The notes beneath the pieces are model-generated. The model was given only the letters and a program-made list of their open reading frames with translations, did not search any database and was not told the DNA's origin. This document shows positions 4,036 to 11,984 of a stretch of 64,000 bases of DNA, piece by piece. This DNA is from Onishia taeanensis (GTDB lineage Bacteria > Pseudomonadota > Gammaproteobacteria > Pseudomonadales > Halomonadaceae), in the NCBI RefSeq assembly GCF_013349955.1, contig NZ_JABVXC010000002.1, positions 337,623 to 401,622 of the forward strand, read 5' to 3'. Position 1 is the stretch's first letter. Every line of letters starts with the position of its first letter. Position numbers and translations under genes: made by a program.

Positions 4036-4120
4036 GCGTCCTTTCTTCTGAGGCCGTCGTTTTCCTGCGTCACTCAGTGTTTGTTCGTTACTCCAATTTA
4101 CTGATCAGGAGGGCTTGTCG

Positions 4121-5812
4121 ATGACACAGCCTAGAGAGTTCGATTACATCATCGTTGGCGCTGGCTCGGCCGGCAATGTGCTCGCCACTCGACTGACCGA
4201 GGACGCTGACGTCTCGGTACTGCTGCTCGAGGCCGGCGGCAAGGACCATCGCTTCGATTTCCGCACCCAGATGCCGGCGGCCCTGGCCTATCCGCTGCAA
4301 GGCAAGCGCTACAACTGGGCCTTCGAGACCGATCCTGAACCGCACATGGACAACCGTCGCATGGAATGCGGTCGTGGCAAGGGCCTCGGCGGCTCCTCGC
4401 TGATCAATGGCATGTGCTACATCCGCGGTAACGCCCTGGACTATGACAACTGGGCCAAGAACTCGGGGCTCGAGGACTGGACCTACGCCGACTGCCTGCC
4501 GTACTTCCGCAAGGCCGAGACCCGCGACATCGGCCCCAACGACTACCACGGTGGTGACGGCCCGGTCGCAGTGGCCACCCCGAAAGCGGGCAACAACCCG
4601 CTCTATCACGCCTTCATCGACGCAGGCGTCGAGGCCGGCTACCCGCGCACCGAGGACGTCAACGGCTACCAGCAGGAAGGCTTCGGGCCGATGGACCGTT
4701 TCGTGACCCCCAACGGCCGTCGCGCTTCCACCGCCCGCGGCTACCTGGACACCGCCAAACAGCGCTCCAACCTGACCATCGTCACCCGGGCCACCACCGA
4801 TCGCATTCTCTTCGAGGGCAAGCGTGCGGTGGGCGTCAGCTACCTGCACAAGGACCAGGCGGTCGAGGCCCGCGCCCGCCGCGAGGTGCTGGTGTGTTCC
4901 GGTGCCATCGCTTCACCGCAACTGCTGCAGCGCTCCGGTGTCGGCAATGCCGAGCTGCTCAAGCAGTTCGACATCCCGGTGGTCCATGACCTCAAGGGCG
5001 TGGGCGAGAATCTCCAGGATCACCTGGAGATGTACATCCAGTACGAGTGCAAGAAGCCGATCTCCCTGTACCCGGCGCTCAAGTGGTACAACCAGCCGAA
5101 GATCGGCTTGGAGTGGATGCTCAACGGTACCGGCATCGGCGCCAGCAACCAGTTTGAAGCGGCCGGCTTCATTCGCTCGAGCGATGACGAAAAGTGGCCT
5201 AACTTGCAGTACCACTTCCTGCCGATCGCCATCAACTACAACGGCACCAGCGCCATCCAGGCACACGGCTTCCAGGCCCACGTCGGCTCGATGCGCTCTG
5301 AGAGCCGCGGTCGCGTCAAGCTGACCTCGCGCGACCCCAAGGCCGCGCCGAGCATCCTGTTCAACTACATGTCCACCGACAAGGACTGGCAGGAGTTCCG
5401 CGACGCCATCCGTCTGACCCGCGAGATCATCGCCCAGCCAGCCATGGACGAGTTTCGTGGTCGCGAGCTCGCCCCCGGCCCGGACGTGCAGTCCGATGCC
5501 GAGCTCGATGCCTTCGTGCGCGAGCATGCCGAGACCGCTTACCACCCCTGCGGCACATGCCGCATGGGCGAGGGCGAAGATGCCGTGGTCGATGGCGCCG
5601 GCCGCGTGCACGGCCTCGAGGGTCTGCGGGTGGTCGATGCCTCGCTTTTCCCGCTTATCCCTACCGGCAACCTCAACGCACCGACGATCATGCTGGCCGA
5701 GAAGATGGCCGACAAAATCCGTGGCCGTGAGCCCCTGGCTCCCTCCAAAGCGCCCTACTACGTCGCTGAAGATACACCGGCCCAGGCGGCGCCCCAATAC
5801 CGCCTGAACTAA
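4121..5812 (+). CDS. betA: choline dehydrogenase
   Basis: FAD-dependent GMC oxidoreductase that oxidises choline to betaine aldehyde, normally membrane-associated. The start at ATG 4121 lies 7 nt after AGGAGG; an in-frame TTG two codons upstream is too close to the ribosome site. The N-terminus carries the FAD dinucleotide fold ([17 protein letters not shown]), followed by the GMC signature [15 protein letters not shown], and near the C-terminus the catalytic region [10 protein letters not shown]. The protein is 563 residues, as expected. It is the last gene of the bet operon and is followed by a strong terminator. Confidence 0.96.
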
Positions 5813-5842: not shown

Positions 5843-5880
5843 AGCCCCCGAAGGTTAGGCCTTCCGGGGCTATTTTTTTG
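5843..5880 (+). terminator. rho-independent terminator after betA
   Basis: A 12-bp stem (5843-5854 with 5860-5871, one C-C mismatch) is followed by TATTTTTTT. It separates the bet operon from the curli genes. Confidence 0.85.
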
Positions 5881-6181
5881 CTTCTTTTCGGTGAGACCTC
5901 ACCTGCCACAATTCGTCTCCAAAAAGTGACCACCAACATAATATCCTTGCAGCACTCTCAACTTGCGCCTGATTAGTTTTGTAACACTACAAGTATTAGG
6001 CATCTAATATATTAATGTATTAGAAAAACCACATCACAGAGAAATTGACGCCCCAACTAGTGAGTGCCAGTATGAGTCCGAGCGTAAAGAAACGTTACAA
6101 AACGTATCCGCTCATTCCATCGTCGAGCCAGTGGATGGAATTACGACGATATCTCATCGCTATACAGCAAGGGTGATTAAA
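5881..6181 (+). promoter_or_regulatory. AT-rich regulatory region upstream of the curli genes
   Basis: About 300 bp without a gene and clearly more AT-rich than the flanks. A possible promoter is TTGACG (6045-6050), 17 bp, CAGTAT (6068-6073), leaving a leader of about 100 nt before the first curli gene. Upstream at 6004-6023 lies an interrupted palindrome with arms CTAATA/TATTAG, a candidate regulator site. No csgD-like regulator gene is present to suggest who binds it. Confidence 0.4.
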
Positions 6182-6820
6182 ATGAAAAAACTTCTCCTCT
6201 CCGCAAGCATTATGGCCATCATGTCCACTCCGGTCCTGGCGGATAGCAATGAAGTATATATGGAACAGCTGGGCATTATTAACCAGTTCAACTCCGACCA
6301 AAGCGGAAACAACAACACTATTGGCTCTTCTCGTAATGCGGCCACCCAGGATGGTACTGGTAACTACGCAGACCTGGATCAGACTGGGAATCGTAATGGC
6401 ATCGATCGCTTCATGCAAGATGGCAACTATAACCGTGCAGACATCGACCAAGTCGGCTATGGCAACGACTCCAACACCTACCAAAAAGGCGATGGCAACC
6501 AGACAAATGTCGCCCAATATGTCTATGACAACGAATCCAACACCGTGCAAGTTGGCGATGAAAACGTAATTGGCGCCTTCCAGTTTGGCTCCCAGAACGA
6601 TATTTACGCAGAACAGCGTGGCGATGGCAACACCATCAATGCCAGCCAAGTTTTAAACAACAACGACCTCGATGCTGAACAATTTGGCAACGGCAATATG
6701 CTAACGTCATCACAGTTCGGTTCCTACAACCGTATCGATTCTCACCAGCATGGCACTGACAACATGGCACACCTGAGCCAGCAAGGTATCGGAAACCGCG
6801 CCAATGTCGTTCAGCACTGA
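6182..6820 (+). CDS. curlin-repeat amyloid subunit (CsgA-like)
   Basis: A secreted 212-residue amyloid subunit. The ATG at 6182 begins a clear signal peptide (MKKLLLSASIMAIM, cleavage after PVLA). The mature protein is built almost entirely from about 16 half-repeats of the Q-x-G-x-x-N type spaced about 11 residues apart (EQLGIIN, DQSGNNN, DQTGNRN, MQDGNYN, DQVGYGN, EQRGDGN, EQFGNGN, SQQGIGN and others), i.e. about eight curlin repeats. E. coli CsgA has five, so this is a longer version. It is low in charge and rich in N, Q, G and D. It is the first gene of the curli cluster and is followed by a terminator-like hairpin, which would give excess subunit mRNA. Confidence 0.88.
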   Translation: MKKLLLSASIMAIMSTPVLADSNEVYMEQLGIINQFNSDQSGNNNTIGSSRNAATQDGTGNYADLDQTGNRNGIDRFMQDGNYNRADIDQVGYGNDSNTYQKGDGNQTNVAQYVYDNESNTVQVGDENVIGAFQFGSQNDIYAEQRGDGNTINASQVLNNNDLDAEQFGNGNMLTSSQFGSYNRIDSHQHGTDNMAHLSQQGIGNRANVVQH

Positions 6821-6846
6821 TTAAGGGCTGAAACCTTCAAGATCTG

Positions 6847-6876
6847 CCGGGCATCCAGTGGGGTGCCCGGGTTTTC
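6847..6876 (+). terminator. partial terminator between csgA-like gene and the rest
   Basis: A 10-bp stem CCGGGCATCC/GGGTGCCCGG (one G-T pair) with loop AGT is followed directly by GTTTTCTC. It lies 27 bp after the subunit stop and just before the next gene. It would lower expression of the downstream genes relative to the major subunit. Confidence 0.6.
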
Positions 6877-6890
6877 TCAAGGTGCAATGC

Positions 6891-7310
6891 ATGATGCCCC
6901 ACAGCACAGCATGGAACATCAGACGCTCGAGAACGCTATCGAAAGCACTGATCGCTGGCTTTATCACGATCAGTACTGCTCCCTCGGCCATGGCTCAACA
7001 GGTATTCACTCAGCTCAATTGCAAAATTGTCATCGAGCGTGAGGCAGAGGCTGTCAGGGCGACAAGTGTTATCGAGGCTAACAAGCCGACCCGTGCCGAC
7101 TATGTCTTGAGGACACTCAAGATTGATGCCGCCGGCTCCGGAACAAGCGAACAATCCGGTTCCATTTCACTGCTACCCGGTGAGTCCGCTACTACTGCAC
7201 AGACAATTCACCGACTGGCTAAGACAGGTTGGCTCGAATTCCATTTACGCGTTACTGAGCGGTTGACAGGGACCTCGTGTGAGGCCAAGGAAATCGTTAG
7301 CCCAATGTAG
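6891..7310 (+). CDS. curli assembly chaperone-like protein (CsgC/CsgH type)
   Basis: A 139-residue exported protein. The ATG at 6891 is preferred because AAGG lies 8 nt upstream; a GTG at 6858 would sit inside the terminator hairpin. A basic N-terminus and hydrophobic stretch (ALIAGFITISTAPSAMA) form a signal peptide. The mature part is a small beta-rich domain with spacing like CsgC/CsgH (SEQSGSISLLPGESA, then WLEFHLRVTERL). In known systems CsgC and CsgH stop curlin from polymerising in the periplasm. The CXC motif of enteric CsgC is absent, so it is closer in character to CsgH. The call rests on weak similarity plus its place between two curlin genes. Confidence 0.6.
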   Translation: MMPHSTAWNIRRSRTLSKALIAGFITISTAPSAMAQQVFTQLNCKIVIEREAEAVRATSVIEANKPTRADYVLRTLKIDAAGSGTSEQSGSISLLPGESATTAQTIHRLAKTGWLEFHLRVTERLTGTSCEAKEIVSPM

Positions 7311-7361
7311 CATCAGCCAATACAACCACCTGCTAACGTATCGATTAAAAAGGTAAGTGCC

Positions 7362-7931
7362 ATGCAATCAAGAACCTCCCATTATCTCGCTGCACTGGTA
7401 TTTACCTTTTTACCAGCACTTGCATCAGCTAGTGACAGCAGCGCATTCATTACCCAGATCACTAGGAATGATGCTCCAGAGCAGGCTAATGAACGTCAAA
7501 TCGCTAATTTCTCAACACCTGGAACCGGCCAACTCGGCGCCTTGGATATCGACCGTCTGGCACTTTCGCAAGTATCAGCAAGCAACCAGCACGGCACACT
7601 TTCGGTTGCTAACCAGCAGGGAAAAGACAATCGCCTCTCCGTTGTCGCCATGGGTAGGGGAAATATCACCCTGCAGCAACAGCAGGGGGTAGGCAACACA
7701 TCGGATATAGCGCTTGCTGGTCAACGCAATGCTATTTCAGTAGATCAACGTGGCAACTACCTAGACTCAGACATAAAGGTAGTAGGAAGTAATAAAGTCA
7801 TTTTCCACTTTCAGCGAGGCACCGGTCAGAGTGGCCATCAACAGCCACTACTTTATACGGGGAACCAGCGAGAAGCACAGGTCATCCTCGACACCCCCAA
7901 GGGGCGGCTGACCAAAACAATAGCCAACTGA
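7362..7931 (+). CDS. curlin-repeat minor subunit/nucleator (CsgB-like)
   Basis: A 189-residue secreted protein with a signal peptide (YLAALVFTFLPALASA) behind an AAAAGG ribosome site. Only the middle, about residues 70-145, carries curlin-type half-repeats (NQQGKDN, QQGVGN, LAGQRN, DQRGNY), fewer and less regular than in the 6182 gene. A basic, non-repetitive tail follows (GNQREAQVILDTPKGRLTK). A short repeat core plus a charged tail fits a CsgB-type nucleator that anchors the fibre. The order csgA-csgC-csgB differs from E. coli csgBAC. Confidence 0.68.
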   Translation: MQSRTSHYLAALVFTFLPALASASDSSAFITQITRNDAPEQANERQIANFSTPGTGQLGALDIDRLALSQVSASNQHGTLSVANQQGKDNRLSVVAMGRGNITLQQQQGVGNTSDIALAGQRNAISVDQRGNYLDSDIKVVGSNKVIFHFQRGTGQSGHQQPLLYTGNQREAQVILDTPKGRLTKTIAN

Positions 7932-7958
7932 CAATCGTCCTTAGAGGAAGATACGTAA

Positions 7959-8438
7959 ATGAAGACTACTACGCCACTCACTATCTCATCACTTACTGCC
8001 GCCTCATCACTTACTGTCTCATCACTTACTATAATAGTGGCAGCTACTCTGCTCTTTCCCATTAGTGCTTGCGCAGGCGATCTGACCTATCGCCCCATCA
8101 ACCCTTCATTTGGCGGCGACCCCTTCAATAGCTCTCATCTGCTGCAAATGGCTGACATACAAAATCAGTACAAGGACGATGGTAGCGACCTTGACTCACT
8201 GTTCGCGGAGGAAACGGCTGCTGATCAGTTTGTCTCCTCAATGCAAGGCACGATGATTTCCGGCGCATCCTCACAACTGAGAGAAGCCATCTTCGAAGAT
8301 GGGGCACCACCCTCGGGAACCTTCACATTGAACGGTGCCACAGTGACATATGAGACGGTCAACAGCCGTGTCCTAGTAAAGGTGTCGGATGGCATCACTA
8401 CCAATTCCTTTGACATCCCTAAGCCCAATACTAACTAA
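7959..8438 (+). CDS. csgF: curli production/assembly component CsgF
   Basis: CsgF couples curlin export through CsgG to surface nucleation. The mature N-terminus LTYRPINPSFGGDPFN matches the CsgF signature FRNPNFGGNP, the segment that inserts in the CsgG pore. Continuing features are LLQMADIQNQYKDD and a C-terminal beta domain. The signal peptide is unusually long, about 40 residues, because a 15/18-bp sequence encoding SSLT is repeated three times in it. The residues before cleavage (PISAC) happen to resemble a lipobox, but ordinary cleavage before GDL is the parallel of E. coli. AGAGGAAG precedes the ATG. Confidence 0.88.
   Translation: MKTTTPLTISSLTAASSLTVSSLTIIVAATLLFPISACAGDLTYRPINPSFGGDPFNSSHLLQMADIQNQYKDDGSDLDSLFAEETAADQFVSSMQGTMISGASSQLREAIFEDGAPPSGTFTLNGATVTYETVNSRVLVKVSDGITTNSFDIPKPNTN
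7985..8030 (+). repeat. in-frame triplicated element in the csgF signal peptide
   Basis: CTCATCACTTACTG occurs at 7985 and 8003, and all but its last base at 8018. The spacings are 18 and 15 bp, both multiples of three, so copy-number change would lengthen or shorten the signal peptide without a frameshift. Confidence 0.85.
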
Positions 8439-8463
8439 TCAGCATTTACGCGCAGGGAATATC

Positions 8464-9339
8464 ATGAAAACGTTAACTCAAGCTCTGTGCCTATTGGCCA
8501 GCGTCATACTCTCAGGGTGTGTATCGACCTCTGGCCCGATGTCAGAGCCCGCATCCTATATCAGTGAAACCAGCACCTCTTCACTGCTCAAGAACCTGCC
8601 CGCGGCGGCCAGGCCAGTCGACATCGCAGTGTATGAATTTTCTGATCTGACGGGACAATACAAACCCAATGAAGGCTTTGCGGAATACTCCCGCGCCGTG
8701 ACTCAAGGCGCCGATGCGATTCTTGTCGATGTGCTAGCCGATGCAGGCCAGGGTCAGTGGTTCAATGTTGTCGAGCGCCGAGGTCTCCCCAACCTGCTGC
8801 GCGAGCGCCAGGTCATACAAGCCACTCGTCAGCAGTTCAATGGCCAGGCGGCGGCTCCCTTGCCTCCGCTGACCTTCGCTGGCGTGATCATCGAAGGTGG
8901 CATCATTGCCTATGAAACCAATTTATCGACCGGTGGTGCCGGCGCCAGATACCTGGGCATTGGCGTCAACTCTGAATACCGCACCGACCTGGTCACCATT
9001 AACCTACGCTTGGTCAGCGTGCAGACGGGGCGCATCCTCAACAGCATTACCACCACCAAGAAGATTTACTCCGTTCTGGTCCAAGGGTCGGTATTCAAGT
9101 ACATCGCGGCCGATGAGATCCTCGAACTCGAGGCTGGCTATACCCGCAACGATCCACCGCAACTTGCCGTACGTGAAGCCATCGAACTGGCAGTCTACAC
9201 CGCCATCATCGAGGGCGCAGAACGGGACACCTGGGGGTTCGCGAATACTCAGCAGGGACGAGAGGCCATCGACACCTTCCAACAGCGTGTGGCGGGGTTG
9301 CAGCCCTCTTCCCATGGTCAGGCGTTACAGGACAGCTAA
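8464..9339 (+). CDS. csgG: curli secretion channel lipoprotein CsgG
   Basis: Outer-membrane export pore for curlin subunits. The ATG at 8464 gives a lipoprotein signal with lipobox LSGC at about residues 16-19. The CsgG core is recognisable from PVDIAVYEFSDLTGQYKPN through WFNVVERRGLPNLLRERQ to the strand-forming ARYLGIGVNSEYRTDLVTINLR and the SIT-TTKKIYS segment. It has 291 residues, close to E. coli CsgG. It is the last gene of the curli cluster, 25 bp after csgF, with a perfect terminator following. Confidence 0.95.
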   Translation: MKTLTQALCLLASVILSGCVSTSGPMSEPASYISETSTSSLLKNLPAAARPVDIAVYEFSDLTGQYKPNEGFAEYSRAVTQGADAILVDVLADAGQGQWFNVVERRGLPNLLRERQVIQATRQQFNGQAAAPLPPLTFAGVIIEGGIIAYETNLSTGGAGARYLGIGVNSEYRTDLVTINLRLVSVQTGRILNSITTTKKIYSVLVQGSVFKYIAADEILELEAGYTRNDPPQLAVREAIELAVYTAIIEGAERDTWGFANTQQGREAIDTFQQRVAGLQPSSHGQALQDS

Positions 9340-9371
9340 CACCGACCAGAAAGCTGCTGCTATCTGACTTC

Positions 9372-9402
9372 AAACAGCCCCGCACATGCGGGGCTGTTTG
9401 CT
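9372..9402 (+). terminator. terminator after csgG
   Basis: Perfect 13-bp inverted repeat (9372-9384 with 9387-9399) whose right arm ends in TTT. The symmetric A/T ends would allow it to work in both directions. Confidence 0.85.
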
Positions 9403-9533: not shown

Positions 9534-11984
9534 ATGATCCACCTCTTGCTGATCGTTCTGGCCCTGGCGGGCCTCACCGCAGTAATGCGGCGTGAAGCCG
9601 GCGCCCTCGCCGCCCTTGGCGTGCTCGCCGTACTTGGCATCGCCGGCCTCGTGCTCAACGCACCTCTCCTTGGTTTGGTACTGCTCATTGCTGCCGCCGG
9701 CGTGGCGGCATGCGGCCTGCCTCCGCTGCGTCGCCGCTGGCTGTCGCCTCGGCTCTTCGCCATGTTCAAGCGAGTCGCCCCCAAGGTGTCGGCCACCGAG
9801 CGCACGGCTCTCGAGGCAGGCAGCGTCGGCTGGGACGGCGAACTGTTTTCCGGTAAGCCGGATTGGCAGGCCCTGCTGGATACAACAGACAATGGCCTGA
9901 CGGACAAGGAGCAGGCCTTCCTCGATCAGCAGTGCTCCGTGGCCGCCGGCATGTGCAACGCCTGGGACATCGCGCGGGATCGCGCCGACCTGCCGCCGGA
10001 GCTTTGGGCCTACCTCAAGCAGGAAGGCTTCTTCGGCATGATCATCCCCGAGGCCTACGGCGGTCTCGGCTTCTCGGCCAAGGCGCAGTCACTCGTGTTG
10101 CAGAAGCTTGCGGTCAACGAGACCCTGATGGTCACCGTCGGCGTGCCCAACTCACTGGGGCCGGGCGAGCTGCTGCTCAAATACGGTACCGACGCCCAGA
10201 AGGATCACTACCTGCCGCGCCTGGCCGACGGCCGCGAGATACCCTGTTTCGGTCTTACCGGCCCGCGCGCGGGCTCCGATGCCACCGCCCTGCCGGACAC
10301 CGGCGTGGTCTGCAAGCAGATGGTCGACGGAAAGGAAGTACTGGGCCTCAGGCTCAACTTCGAGAAGCGCTGGATCACGCTTGCACCCATCGCCACCGTG
10401 GTTGGCCTAGCGTTTCGCATGTTCGACCCGGATCACCTGCTCGGTGATAGCGAGGACCTGGGTATCACCTGCGCGCTGATTCCCCGCGACACCGACGGCA
10501 TGGAAATCGGCCGCCGCCATCACCCCATCGGCAGCCCCTTCATGAACGGCCCGATCAAGGGCAAGGATGTGTTCGTACCGCTGGACACCATCATCGGCGG
10601 CCCGGAAATGGCCGGCCAAGGCTGGCGTATGCTGGTCGAGTGCCTGTCGGTGGGGCGCTGCATCACCCTGCCCTCCGGCGCCACTGGCACCGCGCGCTAC
10701 GCACTAGGCTGGAGCGGTGGTTTTGCCCGCATTCGCCGCCAGTTCAACGTTCCTGTCGCTGAAATGGAAGGGGTGCAGGAGCCACTGGCCCGCATCGCCT
10801 CGATGGCCTATATCGCCCAGGCCACGGTTCGCCAGACCGCCAACATGATCGACCACGGCCACAAGCCAGCGGTCCCCTCGGCGATTCTCAAGAGCCAGCT
10901 CACAGAGTTCCAGCGCAGCCTGCTCGGCGACGCCATGGATATCCACGGCGGCAAGGCCGTCACGCTTGGACCAAGCAACTATATTGGCATCGGCTACTCG
11001 GCCAACCCGGTAGCGATCACCGTGGAAGGTGCCAACATCATGACCCGCAACCTGATGATCTTCGGGCAGGGAGCGATTCGCTGTCACCCCTATGTGCTCG
11101 AGGAACTGGCCGCCAAGGACGCCGACGACCTCAAGGCCTTCGATCAGGCCTTCTTCGCCCATACCGGTCTGATCTTGGGTAACGCCGCCCGAGCACTGAC
11201 CCAGGGGCTCGGTATCGGCCGCCCGGCGGTGCCCTTCGATAGCGTCGCCGCACCTTATGCGCAGGATGTTGCCAGGCTCTCGGCGGGCTTCGGCCTCGCC
11301 GCGGATGCGGCAATGGCGAGCCTCGGCGCCAGCCTCAAACTGCGCGAAATGCTCTCGGCAAGGCTTGGCGATGTATTGTCGAACCTCTATCTGGCGTCGA
11401 TGGTGCTCAAGTCCTGGCACGAAGGCGATAAGGTCGAAGGCGAGGATGAACTCTTGCACTACAGCTGTCGCTTCCTGCTGCAGCGCGCCGAACAGGCCTT
11501 CGTCGAGTTGTTCGACAACCTGCCCAACCGCGCTCTAGCCCGAGTGCTCAAGCCCATCGTGATGCCACTGGGGCGGCGTTGGGCTCGCCCATCCGATAAG
11601 CTGACTCGCCATATCGCCAAGAACGTCTCACAGGCGTCAGCACTGCGCACCATGCTGCTCGCCCATACCTGGGATACTCAGGAAGAAGGCCAGCAGGATA
11701 ATCCTCTGGCCCACTACAACGCCTTGCTTGTTGACCAGGAGCGCGCCGAGCCCATTTATCGCACCCTCAACAAGGCCTACGCCAAGGGCGAGCTGCCTGC
11801 TGACGCGCTACACCCCGAACAGCGCATCGAAGCGGCCCTGGCCGCCGGCCTGATCAGCGAGGACGATGCCCATTTCATGCGCCGGCATGAAGCCGAAGTA
11901 TTGGAGATGCTCAGCGTCGACGACTTCGCTTTCGACGCCTTCGCCAGCGCCAAGGAAAACGTCACCTGGCACAACGCAGCCTGA
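9534..11984 (+). CDS. fadE: acyl-CoA dehydrogenase FadE
   Basis: First oxidation step of fatty-acid beta-oxidation. It has 816 residues, the long FadE form, with a hydrophobic N-terminus of about 70 residues (two or three membrane segments, LLLIVLALAGLTAVM and LLGLVLLIAAAGVAAC). The dehydrogenase core follows (GFFGMIIPEAYGGLGFSAKA, PCFGLTGPRAGSDA) and then a C-terminal DUF1974-type extension. GGAG precedes the ATG, a PsrA-like box lies upstream and a terminator follows, so it is probably a single-gene unit. Confidence 0.94.
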   Translation: MIHLLLIVLALAGLTAVMRREAGALAALGVLAVLGIAGLVLNAPLLGLVLLIAAAGVAACGLPPLRRRWLSPRLFAMFKRVAPKVSATERTALEAGSVGWDGELFSGKPDWQALLDTTDNGLTDKEQAFLDQQCSVAAGMCNAWDIARDRADLPPELWAYLKQEGFFGMIIPEAYGGLGFSAKAQSLVLQKLAVNETLMVTVGVPNSLGPGELLLKYGTDAQKDHYLPRLADGREIPCFGLTGPRAGSDATALPDTGVVCKQMVDGKEVLGLRLNFEKRWITLAPIATVVGLAFRMFDPDHLLGDSEDLGITCALIPRDTDGMEIGRRHHPIGSPFMNGPIKGKDVFVPLDTIIGGPEMAGQGWRMLVECLSVGRCITLPSGATGTARYALGWSGGFARIRRQFNVPVAEMEGVQEPLARIASMAYIAQATVRQTANMIDHGHKPAVPSAILKSQLTEFQRSLLGDAMDIHGGKAVTLGPSNYIGIGYSANPVAITVEGANIMTRNLMIFGQGAIRCHPYVLEELAAKDADDLKAFDQAFFAHTGLILGNAARALTQGLGIGRPAVPFDSVAAPYAQDVARLSAGFGLAADAAMASLGASLKLREMLSARLGDVLSNLYLASMVLKSWHEGDKVEGEDELLHYSCRFLLQRAEQAFVELFDNLPNRALARVLKPIVMPLGRRWARPSDKLTRHIAKNVSQASALRTMLLAHTWDTQEEGQQDNPLAHYNALLVDQERAEPIYRTLNKAYAKGELPADALHPEQRIEAALAAGLISEDDAHFMRRHEAEVLEMLSVDDFAFDAFASAKENVTWHNAA

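Follow-up and report, generated by a model that had tools for sequence, protein, structure and literature searches.

Curli are encoded in Escherichia coli by two divergent operons, csgBAC and csgDEFG; CsgE caps the periplasmic face of the CsgG channel there, reducing its permeability and favouring curli subunits (PMC6050966), and the N-terminal segment of CsgF lines the CsgG pore (PMC7304575). Curli gene order differs between genera, CsgH-bearing curli operons without CsgE, CsgC and CsgD are known in Alphaproteobacteria, and horizontal transfer is held to have played a minor part in the spread of curli (PMC3521004). A stretch of 64,000 nucleotides from the gammaproteobacterium Onishia taeanensis (Halomonadaceae; contig NZ_JABVXC010000002.1, positions 337,623 to 401,622; hereafter the window) contains five csg genes, all on the forward strand, in the order csgA-csgH-csgB-csgF-csgG (6182-9339). 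They very probably form a complete alphaproteobacterial-type csgAHBFG operon that was acquired horizontally into the gap between betA and fadE and would work without CsgE. Systems of this kind are already known; their occurrence in Halomonadaceae is unreported in the literature searched, where no account of csgAHBFG curli entering this family by transfer and no paper on a Halomonas csgH were found. The five genes are:

6182-6820, + strand: csgA, major curlin of 212 amino acids with 14 exact QxGxxN motifs (Curlin_rpt 54.1 bits, cut-off 20.7)
6891-7310, + strand: csgH, periplasmic amyloid-inhibitor chaperone (NCBIfam CsgH 40.8 bits, cut-off 35)
7362-7931, + strand: csgB-like, putative minor curlin/nucleator with degenerate repeats and a basic C-terminus (CsgB profile 22.6 bits, E 7e-5)
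7959-8438, + strand: csgF, extracellular adaptor (CsgF 87.4 bits, cut-off 25.8)
8464-9339, + strand: csgG, outer-membrane secretion channel lipoprotein of alphaproteobacterial type (CsgG 197.2 bits, cut-off 20.8)

The locus thus has the parts by which curli and type VIII secretion are recognised, namely a CsgG channel, a CsgA with curlin repeats and a CsgF linked to CsgG, each scoring above its family cut-off. The five genes recur, identically ordered and on one strand, in the alphaproteobacterial csgAHBFG operons of Oricola nitratireducens (L103), Rhizobium sp. CCGE532 (pRCCGE532c) and plasmids of Limimaricola variabilis and Bosea. As in the window, CsgH is present and CsgE and CsgC are absent at these loci, which hold the closest CsgG and CsgF sequences. 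The window differs in its gammaproteobacterial host, its chromosomal betA-fadE site and a CsgG only 47-59% identical, and it lacks the invasion-associated locus B gene that follows csgG in Limimaricola and Sulfitobacter. Other Halomonadaceae (for example, G016 and G027) belong to the same family and share homologous curlins, CsgF and CsgG, but their csgDEFG-BA operons include csgD and csgE, have no CsgH above cut-off, and encode a CsgG that is 42-46% identical and falls in a separate clade of the tree. E. coli MG1655 (L069) shares homologues of CsgA, CsgB, CsgF and CsgG (the last 40% identical), and its CsgC resembles CsgH in fold; unlike the window, it has divergent operons, CsgE and CsgD, and a CxC-bearing CsgC instead of CsgH. 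A preliminary description of the window, made from the sequence alone, had presented this one-strand layout, with a CsgC- or CsgH-like gene between two curlin genes and neither csgD nor csgE nearby, as a departure from E. coli. The layout stands, and neither csgD nor csgE was found within the locus, but the arrangement is the ordinary alphaproteobacterial one, apparently acquired by a gammaproteobacterium. CsgC was likewise not found at the csg locus, and no genome-wide search was aimed at CsgC alone.

Gene order and phylogeny bear on the origin of the operon. Within the family, relatives were found among named genome contigs of Onishia taeanensis, O. niordana, Chromohalobacter marismortui and Halomonas sp. 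M20. The nearest CsgG outside it is that of the alphaproteobacterium Oricola nitratireducens (59% identical), followed by Afifella. The A-H-B-F-G order of the window is matched in Oricola, where it is present in two tandem copies, and in Rhizobium and Limimaricola; in the Rhizobium, Limimaricola and Bosea plasmids an annotated csgH adjoins genes for curlin-like proteins, CsgF and CsgG, the csgF of Bosea having been recognised by blast only. The window CsgG and those of eight relatives make up one clade of the CsgG tree (support 99/96); its sister is Oricola (99/96), and both lie inside a 26-row clade of alphaproteobacterial type (100/94). The CsgF tree likewise places the window gene among alphaproteobacterial ones. 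Approximately unbiased tests reject a grouping with the csgDEFG-type curli of the family for CsgG (p 7.8e-48) and for CsgF (p 7.5e-8), the CsgF tree having long branches and less reliable detail. No relative of the window CsgG was found in viral contigs. The second Oricola copy, a tandem csgA-csgH-csgB-csgF (L103:2482-8823), lies near the contig end, and no intact csgG frame was recovered after it.

The flanks and non-coding elements of the insertion site are:

4115-5812, + strand: betA-like choline dehydrogenase gene, left flank of the insertion
5858-5880, + strand: terminator-like stem with a T run, after the end of betA; marks the left edge of the inserted segment
6040-6181, + strand: region upstream of csgA, TTGACG ... 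TGCCAGTATGAGTCCGAGCGTAA ... GTTACAAAACGTA, strongly conserved in an alignment of six congeneric genomes; likely a promoter/regulator region
6847-6870, + strand: 10-bp G+C-rich hairpin with a T-rich tail, between csgA and csgH
9371-9400, + strand: perfect 14-bp inverted repeat (I2) downstream of csgG, right boundary; likely the operon terminator
9534-11984, + strand: fadE-like acyl-CoA dehydrogenase gene, right flank of the insertion

The two flanking genes are 184 bp apart in G164, a congeneric genome that is 88% complete and without CsgF; a betA terminator is followed there directly by the fadE upstream region known from the window. The gap is also empty, at 162-419 bp, in 13 further genomes of the family. 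Horizontal acquisition is proposed on the CsgG and CsgF trees, the Oricola-like gene order and the empty betA-fadE site. The csg segment has a G+C content of 52%, against about 63% in its flanks. In G010, G149 and G170 the csgAHBFG operon sits at other genomic places, which makes repeated insertion, or movement afterwards, likely. With a site that is empty in relatives, a sister clade in Alphaproteobacteria and a shared module of five genes, the window operon is a clear counter-example to the minor role ascribed to horizontal transfer in the spread of curli (PMC3521004).

Profile searches for CsgF, CsgE and CsgH in 275 Halomonadaceae genomes found CsgF in 107, CsgE in 99 and CsgH above cut-off in nine. 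All nine CsgH genomes contain CsgF and lack CsgE, span four genera and have the A-H-B-F-G order, a recurrence that, with that in Oricola, goes beyond chance; none of the 97 genomes with both CsgF and CsgE has a CsgH above cut-off. Ten genomes have CsgF without CsgE (G000, G163 and G165-G168 of the window genus, G010, G149, G170 and G056), and nine of these account for every CsgH above cut-off in the family. This mutual exclusion of CsgE and CsgH applies inside Halomonadaceae only; outside the family the two can co-occur, as they do in G277. E. coli, with CsgC as its chaperone, gives a match to the CsgH model too, below threshold. A further CsgE-less type ("type III"), with csgF-csgG followed by curlin genes, occurs in G056 (L057) and as second loci of G214 (L058) and G224 (L059); no CsgE and no detectable CsgH were found in these three loci. 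They resemble the window in lacking CsgE in the locus and in a CsgG of the same large clade, but differ in gene order and in a CsgG that is about 50% identical and on a separate branch. G214 and G224 also carry a CsgE-containing csgDEFG-type locus. CsgE is also missing from six CsgF-bearing genomes of other phylum classes (G347, G410, G422, G618, G622 and G646). In G168 a 310-amino-acid frame (C2:157709-157912, L061) gives a further, weak match to CsgF of 20.9 bits, under the cut-off.

The preliminary description had asked whether csgE and csgD form a normal second operon elsewhere in the genome; no such operon was found. CsgE was absent genome-wide in a Pfam profile search and in a search with a nine-sequence profile that matched three control genomes at E 1e-50 to 1e-66. 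A CsgD-like regulator is encoded on another contig, unlinked to curli (G000:C4:42924-43532). It matches the full NF007505 model at 144.6 bits, similar to the csg-linked CsgD of relatives (145.9 and 148.7 bits), and is flanked by rdgB-hemW on one side and a cluster encoding FapD-like and FapF-like proteins on the other. The corresponding rdgB-hemW place is occupied in G016 by a csgDEFG-BA curli operon, and in G027 the curli operon comes after a CsgD-like gene and that FapD/FapF-like cluster. Because these curli operons adjoin the same surroundings, the unlinked CsgD-like regulator is probably ancestral, and it may regulate the csgAHBFG operon. The neighbouring cluster (G000:C4:36803-42831; L152:804-6832) is a possible second functional-amyloid or pilus cluster, with a Gly-rich protein, a FapD-like C39 peptidase (139 bits, cut-off 330), a FapF-like barrel (154 bits, cut-off 700) and a sigma-54 activator; it is conserved in G163, G165, G149 and G027.

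The chaperone encoded at 6891-7310 is CsgH, not CsgC. It scores only 17.9 bits with the Pfam CsgH family (cut-off 27). A structure prediction, proposed in the preliminary description, gave an AlphaFold2 model with a predicted local distance difference test score (pLDDT) of about 94 from residue 41 onwards and a seven-stranded, immunoglobulin-like fold. The top PDB match of this model is Rhodopseudomonas palustris CsgH (2n59; E 1.1e-7, TM-score 0.72 by target), and the second is E. coli CsgC (2xsk). In CsgH the N- and C-terminal strands are joined by a disulphide, whereas CsgC has a CxC motif (PMC4838910, PMC5135000). C44 and C130 of the window protein are invariant in all nine CsgH of the window type and in Oricola and lie at opposite ends of the domain, unlike the CxC of CsgC; a C44-C130 bond is predicted, consistent with the strand-joining disulphide of the CsgH family. 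R. palustris CsgH inhibits amyloid formation by CsgA, and low ratios suffice (PMC4838910).

The exact QxGxxN motifs of CsgA are mostly 11 residues apart and are accompanied by about two degenerate copies, in agreement with an earlier count of about 16 half-repeats, more than in enteric CsgA; the same pattern has six matches in E. coli CsgA. The csgB-like product has two exact motifs and a curlin-repeat score of 12.3 bits, below the cut-off of 20.7. Its CsgB profile match is weak, and the putative nucleator role comes from its place, its residual repeats and its conservation with Oricola. An AlphaFold2 model of this protein had a mean pLDDT of 52 and no significant PDB match, and was set aside. 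CsgF retains the N-terminal NPsFGG segment, whose E. coli counterpart forms the lining of the CsgG pore. The signal-peptide region of csgF contains an imperfect 23-bp direct repeat at a spacing of 33 bp (window 7975-8030), and the window CsgF has 159 amino acids, against 147-148 in five congeneric genomes.

Several points weigh against a horizontally acquired, CsgE-free operon. The genome assembly is fragmented (92 contigs, 99.9% complete), even non-foreign csg loci in the family have a low G+C content, which makes this feature weak evidence, and neither mobile-element genes nor direct repeats were found at the ends of the insertion; expression and fibre formation are putative, being read from the genes. 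The same trees could also arise from an old duplication and differential loss, but many losses would be needed. Such ancient paralogy, with CsgE-less and CsgE-containing curli both present in the pseudomonadotan ancestor and one or the other kept in Halomonadaceae, is improbable: G214 and G224, which hold a csgDEFG-type locus and a second CsgE-less csgF-csgG locus, indicate that the two can co-exist, but the window type occupies different places between genera and a site that is empty within its genus, and it is nearest to one alphaproteobacterial lineage instead of forming a deep branch. Vertical descent from an ancestral gammaproteobacterial operon that was rearranged and lost csgE, csgD and csgC would suit the frequency of curli in the family and the known variation in gene order (PMC3521004). 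It is nevertheless very hard to credit, as both trees reject the grouping with family csgDEFG curli, the gene order is that of Oricola throughout, the betA-fadE site is empty in relatives, and the csgDEFG-type loci lie at other places, in G016 adjoining rdgB-hemW.

The degenerate repeats of the csgB-like product might indicate a non-functional or decaying locus, a highly improbable explanation given that all five frames are open in each of the nine genomes carrying the operon, CsgG is 92-97% identical across the genus and the csgA repeats are retained. The acquired operon is, on these sequence features, probably functional. It is also unlikely, though less so, that secretion is still capped, with an unrelated periplasmic protein encoded elsewhere supplying the function of CsgE; the module that moves together has only five genes, and no CsgE homologue exists in any of the ten CsgF-bearing, CsgE-less genomes of the family, nor in the six from other classes.

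A CsgE-free operon would export its subunits as follows. CsgA and CsgB would reach the periplasm by Sec, where CsgH, as an immunoglobulin-like chaperone, would hold them unfolded and soluble; a nonameric CsgG channel, with the CsgF N-terminus as lining, would then export them without a CsgE cap, and CsgB and CsgF would nucleate and anchor the fibre. The CsgE-free gating step is conjectural. The preliminary description held that export specificity must depend on CsgG and CsgF alone or on genes elsewhere; dependence on CsgG and CsgF is possible, but not certain in view of CsgH and of distinctive residues in the CsgG clade. These emerged from an alignment, in E. coli numbering, that set 26 CsgG sequences from the CsgE-less clade against 42 from the other, for which CsgE status is genome-wide in most G-numbered genomes and taken from the neighbourhood only in Oricola, Afifella, Pseudovibrio and the plasmids; G214 and G224 have CsgE at another locus, and the CsgE search covered one of the four Bacteroidetes rows. 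The position of T73 is Arg or Lys in 26/26 CsgE-less sequences and Thr or Ser in 42/42 others, and a three-residue insertion after residue 91 is present in 26/26 and 0/42, respectively, marks that are confounded with ancestry. Going by the general fold, the insertion probably lies between helix 1 and the next strand. In the CsgE-less set, the constriction residue Phe71, two before T73 (PMC7304575), is mostly Tyr, and Asn70 is mostly Glu. Because the two sets are two clades, a link of these marks to the loss of CsgE is hypothetical. It is conceivable, if somewhat doubtful, that CsgE-free export evolved as a property of one CsgG lineage, in which an Arg/Lys ring beside the constriction, together with the insertion, takes over the capping and gating role of CsgE, with CsgH delivering the subunit. 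If so, the presence of both channel types in Halomonadaceae allows swap tests. With CsgE-containing and CsgE-lacking curli in one family, CsgE-free gating and feeding of CsgG can be tested in comparable hosts, and the T73 position and the insertion are the residues to probe. The missing Gly-rich, N22-like signal of CsgA was rejected as a mark of CsgE loss, since the csgE-containing relatives inspected also have no obvious one.

The stem of the csgA-csgH hairpin is kept in all six congeneric genomes, where one pair varies (CG/UG/UA), and strong stems occur at the same junction in G010, G149, G170 and Oricola. A scan of the window for terminator-like elements was not above shuffles (3 versus 3.7), nor was one for promoter-like elements; the pair counts of the hairpin alone do not exceed shuffles either, and nine of its ten pairs never vary. 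Its conservation across relatives nevertheless suggests an attenuator or 3' stabiliser, which would maintain an excess of csgA mRNA. Upstream of csgA, a 15-bp inverted repeat (I3) has arms at 5971-5985 (GATTAGTTTTGTAAC) and 6094-6108 (GTTACAAAACGTATC); its right arm, mostly preserved across congeneric genomes, is a possible binding site for a regulator.

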